From NCBI GenBank assembly GCA_902622985.1, contig CACNSH010000002.1:62001-126000 (forward strand): a DNA stretch of 64,000 nucleotides, read 5' to 3'. Below the pieces are notes generated by a model. It was given only the letters and a program-made list of their open reading frames with translations, did not search any database and had not been told where the DNA came from. Shown here piece after piece: positions 29,807 to 37,007 of the stretch; within the stretch, counting starts at the first letter, position 1; each line of letters opens with the position of its first letter. Origin of the DNA: an uncultured Pelagibacteraceae bacterium (GTDB taxonomy: Bacteria > Pseudomonadota > Alphaproteobacteria > Pelagibacterales > AG-422-B15). A program made the translations under genes and the position numbers.

Positions 29807-30388
29807 TTAGTTAAATAATTGTACAAATTCCTCATAGCCTTCTTCGCTTAACTTTTCTAGGGGAACAAATCTCAATGAAGCGGAGTTAATGCAATATCTT
29901 AATCCAGTTTCAGTGGGTCCATCATCAAATAAATGACCTAGGTGCGCATCTCCATATTGACTTCTTACCTCTGTGCGAACCATTCCATGTGATCTATCAA
30001 TTACTTCTACGATTTCTATTCCTTTTATTGGCTTATCAAAACTCGGCCAACCTGTTCCTGAGTCAAATTTATCTAAAGATGAAAATAAAGGTTCGCCTGA
30101 AATTACGTCAACATAAATTCCAACATCTTTACTATCCCAATATTCATTAAAAAATGGCCTCTCTGTTCCATTCTCTAAAGCAACAATTCTCTGTTCTTCA
30201 GTAAGGTTATTAATAGCTTCTTGTCTTTCTTCAGGCGTGGCAGAACACCAGAAAGGTGTATCCATTACTTCTACTTTTGACATATCGTACTCCTCTAAGT
30301 TTATATCGGCAAAAGACCGGTTTCCATAAATAAGTTGCAAAAAAATAAATAATACAAGCAGTGCAAGATATACAGGATATAGTCTCAT
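29807..30388 (-). CDS. msrB: Peptide-methionine (R)-S-oxide reductase, exported or membrane-anchored
   Basis: 193 residues. An N-terminal hydrophobic segment (about 6-20) suggests export or anchoring. The core has [49 protein letters not shown] and the catalytic cysteine in [11 protein letters not shown]. The zinc-binding CxxC pairs of many MsrB proteins are absent, as in the zinc-free type. It reduces R-methionine sulfoxide in proteins. It sits inside the SUF operon, 2 bp after sufU, which would link its expression to Fe-S stress. Confidence 0.92.
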
Positions 30389-30390
30389 AA

Positions 30391-30825
30391 TTAATCTTTT
30401 AAAGCCTGGTTAAAAGCATGCCATGCCATTGTTGCGCACTTTACCCTCATTGGAAATCCACCTACTCCCTTTAAGGCATAAAGTGAATCTTCCTCATTTA
30501 AAACTTTTAGGTCTTCATCTGAACCTGAAACAAGATTTGTAAAATCCTTAAATATTTCCTCAGCCACTTCAATTTTTTTACCTTTTAATTTTTCTGTCAT
30601 TAATGATGCAGAAGCAAGTGATATGGCACACCCCTCACCTGTGAATTTAATGTCTTCTATTATATTTTGATCATTGAGAAGAAAAGTAAGCTTTAAATTG
30701 TCACCGCACAAAGGATTATGACCATCGGCACTTTTATTATGTGGTTCACATTCGCCAAAATTTCTTGGTTCACGTCCGTGATCTAAAATTATTTCTTGGT
30801 AAAGATCATTTATTAAATCATTCAT
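30391..30825 (-). CDS. sufU: SufU-type Fe-S assembly protein
   Basis: 144 residues. Ligand cysteines: C40 in HNPLCGD (with D42), C66 in GEGCAIS and C130 in [11 protein letters not shown]. The roughly 20-residue insert between the second and third cysteine (around [11 protein letters not shown]) marks SufU rather than IscU. SufU accepts persulfide sulfur from SufS in the SUF pathway. It overlaps sufS by ATGA. Confidence 0.92.
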
Positions 30826-32054
30826 TTATTAAAAAACTCCTTACACTTATGTAGCGCAATAACAAATTTATCAACTTCTTCCAATGAATTATACACACCA
30901 AAAGATAATCTGGCCGTTGAATTGACACCGAGATGTTTCATTAAAGGCTGGCAACAGTGATGACCTGCTCTAATTGCTATTCCTTCAACATCTAAAAACG
31001 AAGATACTTCGTGAGAGTGAACATTTTTAATATTAAAGGATATGATAGAATTCCTTTTATTATCTCCACCATGAATTTCAATAAAATCAATTTCGTTTAA
31101 TTTATTAAATGCATATTTAGTAATTTCATTTTCATGCTCGATAATATTATCGAAACCAATTTTATTCATGTAATCAATTGCTATACCCAATCCGTGCGCT
31201 TCGACTAGTGGAGGAGTTCCTGCTTCATATTTCGCTGGTAATTCTGCATAACTTGCACCTTCTAGACTAACATCTCCAATCATTCCTCCTCCGCCTTGAT
31301 ATGGGGGCATTTCTGATAAAAGATTTTCAGTTCCGTATAAAACTCCAATACCAGCAGGACCATAAGTTTTGTGTCCAGAGAATACAAAAAAATCACAACC
31401 TAGTTTTTGAACATCAATTTTTAAATGAGCAGCTGATTGACAGCCATCAAGGAGAATGGGAATATTTTTATCTTTACAGATACTTATTGCCTTTTCATTT
31501 AATTCAGTACCAAAAACGTTAGAAAGATGTGTCAAAGAAACAATTTTTGTTTTATTTGTGAATAGACTATTAAAATGATCAATATCAATTTCTCCTGATG
31601 TTTGAATATTTGCAAACTTTAGCACAACGCCATACTTGTCTCTTAAAAAAAACCAAGGTATTAAATTTGAGTGGTGCTCGATCAAAGATAAAATTACCTC
31701 ATCTCCCTTTTGCATAAACTTTTCATAGAAAGTTTGAGCAACTAAATTTATTCCTTCTGTGGCACTTTTTGTAAAAATAATTTCATTTTCAGACCTTGCA
31801 TTTAAGAATTTTTGAACTTTCTTTCTAGCGTCCTCATATCTAAATGTTGATTCAACAGATAATGTATGAACTCCCCTGCTAACATTAGAATAATGATTTT
31901 TATAGAAATCATTTGTTTCGTTAATAACTGTATTTGGTTTTTGAGCAGAAGCCGCAGTGTCAAAATAAATAAGATCTTTTTTTTCCAATATTTTTTTTGA
32001 AAGAATTGGAAAATCTTTTCTTACATTTAAATTTAAAGTTTTAGAGTTGTCCAT
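30822..32054 (-). CDS. sufS: Cysteine desulfurase SufS
   Basis: 410 residues from the ATG at 32054, one nucleotide after the sufD stop. An upstream in-frame ATG at 32165 would only extend into sufD. The PLP lysine is K229 in FVFSGHKTYGP, and the catalytic cysteine is C367 in IRAGHHCCQP, with a second cysteine next to it in place of the usual alanine. It removes sulfur from cysteine to supply the SUF scaffold. Group II desulfurase by sequence and context. Confidence 0.95.
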   Translation of the reverse strand: MDNSKTLNLNVRKDFPILSKKILEKKDLIYFDTAASAQKPNTVINETNDFYKNHYSNVSRGVHTLSVESTFRYEDARKKVQKFLNARSENEIIFTKSATEGINLVAQTFYEKFMQKGDEVILSLIEHHSNLIPWFFLRDKYGVVLKFANIQTSGEIDIDHFNSLFTNKTKIVSLTHLSNVFGTELNEKAISICKDKNIPILLDGCQSAAHLKIDVQKLGCDFFVFSGHKTYGPAGIGVLYGTENLLSEMPPYQGGGGMIGDVSLEGASYAELPAKYEAGTPPLVEAHGLGIAIDYMNKIGFDNIIEHENEITKYAFNKLNEIDFIEIHGGDNKRNSIISFNIKNVHSHEVSSFLDVEGIAIRAGHHCCQPLMKHLGVNSTARLSFGVYNSLEEVDKFVIALHKCKEFFNK

Positions 32055-32055
32055 A

Positions 32056-32970
32056 TTAACAGTTCTCGTTGATAAAATTTCGCCCTTTAGCTTGCATTTC
32101 TGCATCTTCAATCTTTTCAATAAACTCTGATAAAAAGCCCTGTATATATATTCTTTCAGCTTCACTCTTTGAAATTCCTCTTGAAGCTAAATAAAATAGT
32201 ACTTCCTCATCAGCTTTTCCAGAAGCCGCGCCATGAGAGCAAACGACATCATCATTATTTATTTCAAGTATTGGTGTAAGATTAATTTTAGATTCCTCGT
32301 CAATTAACAAACCTTTGCTAATTTGGTTAGATTGTGTATTTGTACAATTTTCATCAACAAACACTTTTCCTTTAAACGAAACATTGGATGATCCACGAGT
32401 AACAGCTTTAAAAGAACAATCTGATACCGCAGACTTACTTAAGTGCCTTATTTCTAAATTGTTTTCACATTTTGATGAATTGGACATGACAACGCCACTC
32501 CCAACATACTTTGCATTTTCTTCATTTAAATTAATCTTAGTCTCGTTATTTGTAAAATCTGAACCGTTTGTAAAATTAAAATCCTTAAACATTGAGCCGT
32601 TTGACATATTACAAGTATGAACAAATGAGTTATTAGTATCGGATTGAAACTTATTAAATCTATATAATTCAAGTACTGAGCGATAACCTAAAAATGATTT
32701 TAAAATAAAAGATGTATCAATTATATAATCATTTTCGTCAATAATCTCTATCGTAGCATTCTCATTTAAATATATATCAGCAATAATTTTTAAATTGCTT
32801 CTATTACTGCTTATTAATTTAATTCGTGAAGGTATTTGTGAAAAATTCGAAGTGATTTTTAATTTTAGTTCATCATTTATTATCTCGTGTGATATAGATA
32901 GATCCTTAGAATTGGTTTCAATCGAAAAATTATCCGTTAATTCTATTATTGAAGGTTTTAAAGTTTTCAT
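32056..32970 (-). CDS. sufD: Fe-S cluster assembly protein SufD
   Basis: 304 residues, short for SufD (usually about 400); the N-terminal helical part is reduced. The right-handed beta-helix core and the C-terminal hallmark SHGAASGKADEEVLFYLASRG followed by EAERIYIQGFL are present. It partners SufB and SufC as the SufBC2D scaffold complex. Start overlaps the sufC stop by one base. Confidence 0.92.
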   Translation of the reverse strand: MKTLKPSIIELTDNFSIETNSKDLSISHEIINDELKLKITSNFSQIPSRIKLISSNRSNLKIIADIYLNENATIEIIDENDYIIDTSFILKSFLGYRSVLELYRFNKFQSDTNNSFVHTCNMSNGSMFKDFNFTNGSDFTNNETKINLNEENAKYVGSGVVMSNSSKCENNLEIRHLSKSAVSDCSFKAVTRGSSNVSFKGKVFVDENCTNTQSNQISKGLLIDEESKINLTPILEINNDDVVCSHGAASGKADEEVLFYLASRGISKSEAERIYIQGFLSEFIEKIEDAEMQAKGRNFINENC

Positions 32971-33710
32971 TAACTGTATCCCTCTTGATCTATTCTTGAA
33001 GCTAATGTCTTGTCGCCAGTTTCTATAACTGAGCCATTTTGAAACACATGGACGTAATCAGGCTCAATATATTCTAATAATCTTAAGTAATGAGTTATAA
33101 TAATAAATGATCTTTCATCATTTCTTAATTTATTAATTGCCTCCGCAGTGGTTTTTAATGCATCAACATCTAGGCCTGAGTCTGTTTCATCCATAATGAT
33201 TAAACTTGGATTAAGCAGATCCATTTGAAGGACCTCATTTTTCTTCTTCTCTCCTCCAGAAAAGCCAGCATTTACAAAACGACTATGCATGTCCATTGGT
33301 ATATCTAGGAGTTTTGATTTTTCTTTTAGAATCTGTAGAAATTCTCCGGCATCAATTGGTGTTTCTTTTCTTGACTTTCGATGTGCATTAACAATTTGCT
33401 TAAGATAAGAAGCATTTGTTACTCCAGGAAGTTCTATTGGGTATTGAAAAGCAAGGAAAAGACCATTTAGAGACCTCTCATAGGGATCTTTTGAGAGTAA
33501 ATCCTCACCATTAAGATTAACCTCCCCAGACTCAACATTATAGTTTGGTTTACCTGCTAGAGTGTGGGCAATGGTGCTTTTACCTGAGCCATTAGGACCC
33601 ATTATGGCATGCACTTCACCTTTTCCAATATTTAAATTTAAATTTTTTAAAATTTTTTTTTCTTCAACAGTAACATTTAAATTTTTAATCTCTAACATAC
33701 TATCCAACAC
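32970..33710 (-). CDS. sufC: Fe-S cluster assembly ATPase SufC
   Basis: 246 residues. Walker [10 protein letters not shown], the SufC-typical [12 protein letters not shown], signature [14 protein letters not shown] and Walker [13 protein letters not shown]. This ATPase drives conformational changes in the SufBC2D scaffold. Overlaps sufB by 11 bp and sufD by 1 bp. Confidence 0.96.
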
Positions 33711-35142
33711 TTCCTTCCAAACTTATACTCACAAGTTTTTGGGCTTCGACAGCAAACTCCATTGGAAGTTTTTGTAGAACTTCTTTACAAAACCCATTTA
33801 CAATTAAGCTTTGTGCTTCTTCCGCATCTAAACCCCTTTGCATACAATAAAACAATTGCTCATCACTTATTTTTGAGGTTGTTGCCTCATGTTCTATTGA
33901 TGAAGAATTAGAGCTATTTTCGGTTAAAGGAATAGTATTGGCCTTACACTCACTACCAACTAATAATGAATCGCACTGGGTAAAGTTTTTTGCATTTTTA
34001 GCTTTTTTGTGAAAGCTAACAAGTCCTCGATAAGTATTAGATGACTTTCCTGCAGAAATTCCTTTAGAAATAATTCTACTTTTTGTATTTTTCCCTAAGT
34101 GGATCATTTTTGTACCAGTATCAGCTTGCTGATAATTATTGGTAATTGCTACAGAATAAAATTCACCAGTCGAATTATCTCCTCTTAAAATGCAACTTGG
34201 ATATTTCCATGTTATAGCGGAACCCGTCTCAATTTGAGTCCAGGAAATTTTTGAGTTTTTTCCTTTACATAAACCACGTTTTGTTACGAAATTGTATATA
34301 CCTCCTTTACCATCTTCATCACCAGGATACCAATTCTGAACTGTAGAATATTTTATTTCGGCATCATCAAGCGCAACTAATTCAACATTAGCTGCATGCA
34401 ATTGATTTTCGTCTCTCATTGGAGCCGTACAGCCTTCAAGATAACTTACGTAACTACCTTCATCTGCAATTATAAGTGTTCGCTCAAACTGCCCTGTTTC
34501 AGAAGCATTAATTCTAAAATATGTAGATAATTCCATCGGACATTTAACTCCTTTAGGTATGTAAACAAATGAACCGTCACTAAATACAGCTGAATTCAAA
34601 GTTGCGTAGAAGTGATCGGTTACAGGGATAACAGATCCAATATATTTTTTAACAAGCTCAGGATGTTTTTGAATAGCTTCTGAAATAGGACAAAAAATGA
34701 CACCTATTTCATTTAGTTTTTCCTTAAATGTTGTCGCAACTGACACGCTGTCAAAGACTGCGTCTACTGCAACACCAGCTAAAACTTTTTGTTCCTTTAA
34801 AGGTATGCCTAGTTTCTCATATGTTTCCAATAATTTAGGATCAACTTCGTCAAGAGATTTTGGTTTTTCTTTGAAATCTTTAGGTGATGAGTAATAATAT
34901 AAATCTTGAAAATCAATTTCATCGATCTCTGCCTTAGCCCATTTGGGAACTGACATATTTTCTAAACGTTTGAATGCTGACAGCCTCCATTCCAACATCC
35001 ACTCTGGTTCATTTTTTTTCTTTGAAATCAACTTGATAACATCTTCATTTAACCCTTTTGGAATTTTTTCACTTTCGATTTCAGTAACAAATCCATATTT
35101 GTACTTTTCTTGCGTAAAATTATCTTTGCTTACTTTGTTCAT
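33700..35142 (-). CDS. sufB: Fe-S cluster assembly protein SufB
   Basis: 480 residues, usual length. Marks: the N-terminal [56 protein letters not shown] and [20 protein letters not shown]. The cysteine of [11 protein letters not shown] corresponds to the assembly-site cysteine. Start is 1 bp after iscR. Confidence 0.97.
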
Positions 35143-35143
35143 G

Positions 35144-35566
35144 TTATTTTACCAACGTTTGTTCCTCTACTAAATCACTGAGATGTACAGTGCTTAAATA
35201 ATTACCAATGACACCTTCTAAATTTTCCCAAAAATTATGAGTTAAACACTTTTTGTTAGTCCCTGAACAAAAAGCATTAGGATTATTGCCGCACCCTGTA
35301 GTTTTTATTTTTTCATCTATTGCATTAAATATGTCCAAAATTTTTATTTCTTCTGTTTGTTTATTTAGAATGTATCCTCCACCTGGTCCTTTTTGACTTT
35401 TAACCAATTCAGCCTTTTTAAGATCGTTAAAAATCTGTTCCAAATAAGACAAAGATATATTTTGCCTTACAGAAACATGTGACAAGCTGCATGGTTTTTG
35501 TGATCCAAATTTAGCAAGATCGACCATTGCCAAAACAGCATATCTACCACGCGAAGTTATCTTCAT
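35144..35566 (-). CDS. iscR: Rrf2-family regulator, IscR-like
   Basis: 140 residues. The N-terminal winged helix [20 protein letters not shown] and [20 protein letters not shown], then GPGGGYIL, is typical of Rrf2. Three cysteines C92, C100, C107 with H110 correspond to the [2Fe-2S] site of IscR, with wider spacing than in E. coli. It likely represses or activates the operon that it belongs to; an IscR-like box lies upstream of cysE. Overlaps cysE by ATGA. Confidence 0.9.
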
Positions 35567-36243
35567 TTATTTTCCTCAATTAATTTTTCAAGCTTTTCAA
35601 TTCTATTTCTTAAATCAGAATTATCTTTTTCTAATTTTTCTACTACTGTAGCCCTGCTGTCATCTCCCTTACTGAGACCATATGCTCTGAACTTCTTTAC
35701 TCCCGAAGAATTTGGTACAATTGTATATCGAGCTGGATTTCCAATTACACTTTTGTTCGACTCAACATCTTTTGTAACTACAGAATTAGAGCCAACTTTT
35801 GAATTAGCACCAATTGTAATCGGACCAAGAATTTGTGCTCCAGATCCAATTATTACTTTATCTTCAAGTGTTGGATGTCTTTTCTTATCTTTCTGACTTG
35901 CGCTATCCTCACTTGGAGAAACTCCTCCAAGAGTTACTCCATGGTAAATCGTTACATCATTGCCGATCTCAGCTGTTTCACCAATTACAACTCCCATACC
36001 ATGATCAATGAAAAAACGTTCACCAATTTTAGCCGCTGGATGAATTTCAATACCTGTTAATATTCTACCAATGTAAGACAATAACCTCGCTAAGATTGTA
36101 AGCCTTATTGACCACAAAAAATTTGACAATTTATATATACCGATAGAATGCAGGCCAGGTGAAGTGACTAATGTCTCAATTCTGCCTTTAGCAGCTGGAT
36201 CTCTATCTATATAAGAGTCAATTAAATCAATGATTTTACTCAT
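35563..36243 (-). CDS. cysE: Serine O-acetyltransferase
   Basis: 226 residues. Left-handed beta-helix repeats from about residue 60: [40 protein letters not shown] and later [20 protein letters not shown]. It makes O-acetylserine for cysteine synthesis, so its position as first gene of the SUF operon couples cysteine supply with sulfur mobilisation by SufS. A coiled-coil tail (about 190-226) is present. Nearest promoter features are the -10 at 36280-36285 and the IscR-like box. Confidence 0.93.
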
Positions 36244-36279
36244 TTTAAAAAAAAACCTTGAATTTCAAATAATAAATTT

Positions 36280-36285
36280 AGTATA
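36280..36285 (-). promoter_or_regulatory. Putative -10 element of the cysE-iscR-suf promoter
   Basis: On the minus strand this reads TATACT, 37 bp before the cysE ATG. No good -35 hexamer lies 16-18 bp upstream, which is common for activator- or IscR-dependent promoters. Confidence 0.45.
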
Positions 36286-36306
36286 CCGTCTCAGTGGTTA
36301 AATATA

Positions 36307-36331
36307 ATAACCTACTAATTTAGTCAACTAT
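36307..36331 (-). promoter_or_regulatory. IscR type-1-like operator
   Basis: On the minus strand the box begins ATAGTTGACT, has a 5-nt AT centre (AAATT), and ends AGTAGGTTAT. Against the 25-nt E. coli type-1 consensus as I recall it (ATA-s-yyGACT-r-www-y-AGTC-rr-s-TAT), it differs at two positions. It lies 22 bp upstream of the -10 and 13 bp from the divergent alpha/beta-hydrolase start, so it may influence both. Confidence 0.6.
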
Positions 36332-36344
36332 CTAGTGCTCAAAA

Positions 36345-37007
36345 ATGAATAATCAAGTAAAAGAAATCGTTTTCACAGGACCTGACGGTAAATTGGTCGG
36401 AAAATATAAAAAAGGGCAATCTTTAAACCCTCCAATTGCACTACTAATACACCCACATCCTCTTTATGGCGGAACAATGAATAACCCTATTGTAATGGAA
36501 TTATTTTCTATTTTTGATTCTCTAGGATTTTCAATTTTTCGCTTTAATTTAAGAGGTGTTGGAAAAAGTGAGGGCAAGTTTGATAATGGTTTGGGCGAGC
36601 TTGCTGATGCTGCGGCTGGTCTAGATTGGATACAAAGACAGAATCCAAATACAAATCAATGTTGGGTTGCAGGTTTCTCTTTTGGTGCTCTACTCTGCAT
36701 GCAACTATTAATGAGAAGACCAGAAATAACAAGATTTATAAGTATTTCACCTCAACCTAATCTATATGATTTTAATTTTTTAGCTCCATGCCCAGCTTCA
36801 GGTTTAATAGTCCAAGGTAAAAAAGATGACTTGGTGCCTCCTGAAGAAACTACACGGCTTGCAGAAAAACTCAAATCTCAAAAAAATATAACAGTGGATT
36901 ATGAAGAAATAACAGGAGCAAATCATTTCTATGACAATGAAACTGATAAGCTTGAAAAGACAGTTCGAAGTTACATCGAAAGAGAACTTAATTCAAAGTA
37001 TAGGTAA
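36345..37007 (+). CDS. Alpha/beta hydrolase
   Basis: 220 residues. The nucleophile elbow is GFSFGA with S112; the oxyanion region is HPHPLYGGTM (36-45); acid and histidine candidates are D165 or D166 in GKKDDLVPP and H in GANHFYD. This matches the COG2945-type hydrolases of alphaproteobacteria. Substrate unknown. Divergent from cysE with the IscR-like box in the shared spacer. It meets the convergent anmK gene with no spacer. Confidence 0.88.
   Translation: MNNQVKEIVFTGPDGKLVGKYKKGQSLNPPIALLIHPHPLYGGTMNNPIVMELFSIFDSLGFSIFRFNLRGVGKSEGKFDNGLGELADAAAGLDWIQRQNPNTNQCWVAGFSFGALLCMQLLMRRPEITRFISISPQPNLYDFNFLAPCPASGLIVQGKKDDLVPPEETTRLAEKLKSQKNITVDYEEITGANHFYDNETDKLEKTVRSYIERELNSKYR

Follow-up and report, generated by a model that had tools for sequence, protein, structure and literature searches.

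A predicted type-1-like IscR operator ahead of the cysE-iscR-suf operon in a SAR11 bacterium

A 25-bp palindrome upstream of the cysE-iscR-suf operon of a SAR11 bacterium (Pelagibacterales, AG-422-B15 group) is, judged from sequence, a well-supported candidate operator of the Rrf2 regulator IscR and would serve an essentially familiar feedback switch, because the box is unique in the available genome and is kept or lost together with IscR in relatives. The window analysed here is a stretch of 64 kb, and near-identical loci are found in uncultured SAR11 single-cell genomes including AG-422-B15. The site is real, correctly read and of a well-known kind, and it represents a tidy comparative case with a few lineage-specific twists. 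SAR11 bacteria, which possess few regulators, abound in the iron-poor surface ocean, and a single conserved IscR operator provides a clear, testable prediction for the matching of Fe-S assembly to iron supply in this group. A full-text search of the open literature returned no relevant paper linking IscR with SAR11, so this link seems little described in the literature searched, although a 2006 comparative study may cover it.

Sequence and uniqueness of the box

The box occupies positions 36307-36331 and, read directly from the window, has the sequence ATAACCTACTAATTTAGTCAACTAT; on the minus strand, in the direction of cysE-iscR, the palindrome reads ATAGTTGACTAAATTAGTAGGTTAT. The E. coli type-1 IscR consensus, likewise 25 bp in length, is ATASYYGACTRWWWYAGTCRRSTAT. 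The two sequences differ at two positions, in agreement with the sequence-only reading that had first pointed to the site. At a threshold of three mismatches to the consensus, the box is the sole match in the window, for which shuffled sequence predicts 0.01 matches, and also the single match in the entire assembly (1.30 Mb, 87% complete). One half-site is off consensus in all members of the AG-422-B15 family (AGTAGGTTAT and close forms), and the affinity of the box may therefore be below that of the E. coli sites.

The fine structure of the intergenic region was assessed in an alignment of 34 sequences of the AG-422-B15 family, with substitutions counted on a tree obtained from the flanking genes. 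The half-site ATAGTTGACT has not accumulated a single substitution on this tree, while 8 were counted in the other half-site, 12 in the 5-base spacer and 47 in the 13 bases adjoining the box on the side of the divergent hydrolase gene. Conservation of the whole box relative to the remaining intergenic region is only moderately special (permutation p 0.037), as promoter-like blocks nearby are conserved too. Two further blocks are invariant: TATA at 36303-36306, which is part of a TATAAT motif, and GGTATAC at 36281-36287, which is associated with a TATACT motif.

The operon and the regulator it encodes

The genes cysE-iscR-sufB-sufC-sufD-sufS-sufU-msrB form a tight string on the minus strand, which bears out the earlier proposal that iscR is encoded in the same operon. 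The first gene, cysE (35563..36243), codes for a serine O-acetyltransferase that scores 207.8 bits against NF041874 (cut-off 150) and 209.3 bits against TIGR01172, slightly below the cut-off of 210.65. It overlaps by 4 bp with iscR (35144..35566; PF02082), which is followed by sufB (33700..35142; NF008773, 905 bits), starting at 35142. Synteny and reading frame identify sufC (32970..33710) and sufD (32056..32970). The listed start of the cysteine desulfurase gene sufS (30822..32165) overlaps sufD by 110 nt, and the true start probably lies further in. The string continues with a sufU-type gene for a sulfur transfer/scaffold protein (30391..30825; TIGR01994, 148.6 bits, cut-off 92.5) and msrB (29807..30388; PF01641), which encodes a methionine sulfoxide reductase B whose N-terminus includes a hydrophobic stretch. 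In the AG-422-B15 family, msrB closes the suf string; no msrB was seen in the Pelagibacteraceae suf loci compared, several of these stopping shortly after sufU.

A copy search revealed that the operon cysE is the sole full-length cysE found in the assembly and, more broadly, in the four same-genus assemblies that the search covered. In three genomes of the Pelagibacteraceae genus g3, cysE is located tens of kilobases away from iscR, and the copy search found no full-length cysE in three further SAR11 genomes (G036, G040 and G051).

The regulator is a winged-helix protein of the Rrf2 family (PF02082, 125 bits, cut-off 30), the only one above this cut-off in the assembly, and it is encoded together with Fe-S assembly genes. 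Its sequence matches E. coli IscR structures, and its best NCBIfam match is the IscR model TIGR02010, which is covered at full length with 158.9 bits. As this score is below the cut-off of 207.55, the protein is referred to not as a certified equivalog but as a homologue of IscR whose ligands, operator and operon are conserved. The three cysteine and one histidine cluster ligands are kept in the SAR11 homologues aligned; most of these, and the protein of the window, have the spacing C-x7-C-x6-C-x2-H, compared with C-x5-C-x5-C-x2-H in E. coli IscR. The recognition segment SLSYLEQ is also kept.

Conservation across SAR11 and beyond

The relatives searched included 26 iscR carriers of the same genus, among them the genome of the window itself, and 20 from Pelagibacteraceae. 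The sequence-only reading had proposed a motif scan of sister genomes and had regarded lack of conservation as evidence against the operator. Each of the 17 g3 genomes examined has exactly one box, as do 25 of the 26 iscR carriers of the same genus; the exception (G007) is a genome whose contig stops before the box site. In both groups it always lies ahead of iscR or cysE-iscR. The check came out strongly in favour of the operator: wherever the upstream region of iscR is assembled in these two main genera, a single box is found there (42/42 genomes), compared with 0-1 matches per genome for a reverse-read control pattern. The box thereby combines a location at the promoter of iscR and the Fe-S assembly genes with conservation in relatives, as expected of an operator. 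Degenerate versions occupy the same place in three further IscR carriers (G040, G052 and G054), and boxes ahead of iscR also exist in other Alphaproteobacteria and in some Gammaproteobacteria.

Three near-complete SAR11 genomes (G036, G039 and G051) encode no Rrf2 protein and carry no box; suf is kept, and sufB directly faces the hydrolase gene. Such lineages, with suf but without IscR and its box, offer a natural comparison. True loss of iscR was also considered for ten same-genus genomes and rejected. These genomes are all incomplete (53-85%) and sufB was missing as well in the seven that were checked, bar a weak 26% match in one, so that the locus is treated as unassembled.

Neither the strict three-mismatch pattern nor a looser one that takes in the principal forms of the box in SAR11 revealed a recurrent second type-1-like site in SAR11 genomes. 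With both patterns, matches elsewhere in these genomes are scattered singletons that occur at about the control rate.

Candidate promoter elements in the direction of suf

The box contains the sequence TTGACT (36322..36327, minus strand), a candidate -35 element for cysE-iscR-suf that is invariant in the 34 family sequences. In Pelagibacteraceae genus g3, a TATAAA or TATATA lies 16 bp downstream of the corresponding TTGACT or TTGACC, and this promoter is situated 20-32 bp ahead of iscR, an arrangement that reads as a plain repression layout. A clear, well-spaced -10 element is thus present in Pelagibacteraceae, whereas in the AG-422-B15 family no good -10 exists at 16-18 bp from TTGACT, the best candidates being weak (TATTTA at 17 bp and TATATT at 15 bp). 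Consequently, the promoter in this family may instead be the one at TATACT (36281..36286, minus strand), which lies inside the invariant GGTATAC block, lacks a matching good -35 element and would place the box centre near -45. The earlier proposal of a TATACT -10 element just downstream of the box is borne out as far as the motif is concerned, as the minus strand reads TATACT at 36286-36281. However, it is located 20 bp from the box edge and is therefore not the -10 element that pairs with TTGACT in the box. A consensus promoter scan called no promoter at TATACT and gave no useful call in the region.

Proposed regulation and alternatives

The box is very probably the autoregulatory operator of cysE-iscR-sufBCDSU-msrB, at which holo-IscR would repress transcription and from which it would be released when clusters are short. 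In this model, a dimer of IscR with its [2Fe-2S] cluster would bind the palindrome and cover the TTGACT element, thereby blocking RNA polymerase. Scarcity of clusters, caused by low iron or oxidation, would lead to loss or oxidation of the IscR cluster, departure of IscR from the box and expression of the operon. This would result in more cluster machinery and, in the AG-422-B15 family, in more O-acetylserine for the synthesis of cysteine, the sulfur donor of SufS. Binding by the SAR11 homologue and the choice of promoter are predicted, and the mode of action is carried over by analogy, with repression by holo-IscR through type-1 sites taken from E. coli and the iron response of suf from Candidatus Pelagibacter ubique. 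Repression of isc in E. coli acts through type-1 sites, to which [2Fe-2S]-IscR binds, and it is relieved by loss or oxidation of the cluster (PMC12594620). In Ca. P. ubique, which belongs to a different family from the organism of the window, the suf genes SAR11_0738-0745, led by the regulator SAR11_0738, increased 1.8-2.4 fold under iron limitation, in a study that did not distinguish the effect of IscR from that of Fur or Irr (PMC2864753). Taken together, these two lines make repression by holo-IscR with release the best explanation. Repression is preferred because the sequence is type-1-like and because of the arrangement seen in Pelagibacteraceae, rather than on the basis of mapped transcription starts.

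An addition to this explanation concerns the divergent alpha/beta hydrolase gene (36345..37007, plus strand; 220 aa; PF00561/PF12146), for which the box may be under selection as well. The gene is divergent to iscR in SAR11, Rhodobiaceae, Rickettsiaceae and other Alphaproteobacteria, and its position facing iscR can be regarded as an old arrangement. In the window, 13 bp separate the end of the box from the hydrolase ATG at 36345, exactly the distance given by the sequence-only reading. A candidate hydrolase -10 element that the sequence-only reading had not mentioned, TATAAT (36303..36308, plus strand), is invariant in all 34 family sequences and overlaps the box edge, so that the predicted transcription start would fall inside the box. 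It is plausible that the same IscR dimer also blocks this promoter and represses the hydrolase gene along with suf. Many Pelagibacteraceae loci (among L145-L164) exhibit a Fur-like box, TGATAATTATTCTCA or variants of it, near the hydrolase start, doubled in L158 and L159. The exact pattern lies at the hydrolase start in several genomes and is enriched genome-wide over the control. The presence of this box near several orthologues suggests iron-linked control of the hydrolase in Pelagibacteraceae too, and joint control by IscR is plausible in the AG-422-B15 family, where no Fur-like box was found at 36244-36344 and the IscR box adjoins the candidate -10 element. On the other hand, the Pelagibacteraceae box is 63-112 bp away from the hydrolase gene, the short divergent spacing in the window could be incidental, and neither direct reading nor the consensus promoter scan recognised a hydrolase -35 element. 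The sharing of the site hinted at earlier is thus plausible for the AG-422-B15 family alone; overall, a selected role of the box for the hydrolase is given slightly less than an even chance.

Much less probable is a role of the box as an activator site, in which transcription would start from TATACT at 36286-36281 and IscR, in the apo or holo form, bound about 45 bp upstream as measured from the box centre, would help the polymerase. The invariance of GGTATAC across the family and the poor spacing of TTGACT to any -10 element are consistent with this arrangement. However, the Pelagibacteraceae box overlaps a well-spaced TTGACT/TATAAA promoter close to iscR, as expected for repression, and the sequence is of the type-1 kind, whose E. 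coli representatives act in the repression of isc (PMC12594620).

Still less likely, Fur or Irr could be the main controller of suf and account for its induction by iron limitation. The assembly encodes three proteins of the Fur family, and Fur-like boxes lie between the hydrolase gene and iscR in several Pelagibacteraceae; against this, the intergenic region of the AG-422-B15 family is devoid of such a box and the palindrome at 36307-36331 does not resemble one. Least probable of all is that the conserved block is merely a promoter made up of the -35 element TTGACT and TATA elements and has no IscR function, since, even though TTGACT lies within the most conserved half and the adjoining TATA blocks are invariant, both arms of the palindrome persist in distant families in spite of drift in the spacer, genomes without iscR lack the block even though they retain suf, and the block recurs ahead of iscR in other classes.

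Comparison with known IscR systems

The predicted autoregulatory operator resembles the E. coli iscR-isc promoter in that the regulator is encoded within its own operon, has (Cys)3His ligands and faces a 25-bp palindrome. It differs in that suf would be controlled instead of isc, only one site is present and cysE is the first gene. In Caulobacter crescentus, another alphaproteobacterium, IscR likewise controls a single Fe-S assembly operon, which is upregulated in iron starvation, but its regulon is estimated at about 300 genes (PMC11475020), whereas the assembly of the window has only a single type-1-like site that can be recognised. Rhodobacter sphaeroides IscR is encoded by the first gene of an isc-suf operon and mediates Fe-S-dependent repression, but it relies on a single cysteine ligand and a 19-bp motif, the Iron-Rhodo-box, with many iron-uptake targets (PMC4618611), in contrast to the Cys3-His ligands and the 25-bp type-1-like site in the window. 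SAR11_0738-0745 of Ca. P. ubique is likewise a SAR11 suf operon that includes the regulator gene, which comes first there, and it is induced by iron limitation. Unlike in the window, the Pelagibacteraceae loci examined have no cysE ahead of iscR, and their box is placed next to iscR, away from the hydrolase gene.

What is unusual about the system in the window is the apparent restriction of IscR to one target and the location of the only recognised serine acetyltransferase gene under the box. One might tentatively suppose, though the odds are rather against it, that IscR lost its role as a global regulator in SAR11 and became a switch with a single operator, and that the operator of the AG-422-B15 family took over the only serine acetyltransferase gene of the cell together with the divergent hydrolase gene, so that Fe-S status would set the supply of cysteine; the cysE of Pelagibacteraceae is located at another place, and several of their hydrolase orthologues have Fur-like boxes instead. 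An arrangement of cysE adjoining iscR was also observed in some loci of Rhodovibrionaceae and Gammaproteobacteria. Finally, CAAGG and a subsequent run of T form a conserved leader at 36244-36260, directly before the cysE start, and a similar sequence, CAAGGTTTTT, precedes iscR in three Rhodobiaceae loci (L075, L076 and L105).
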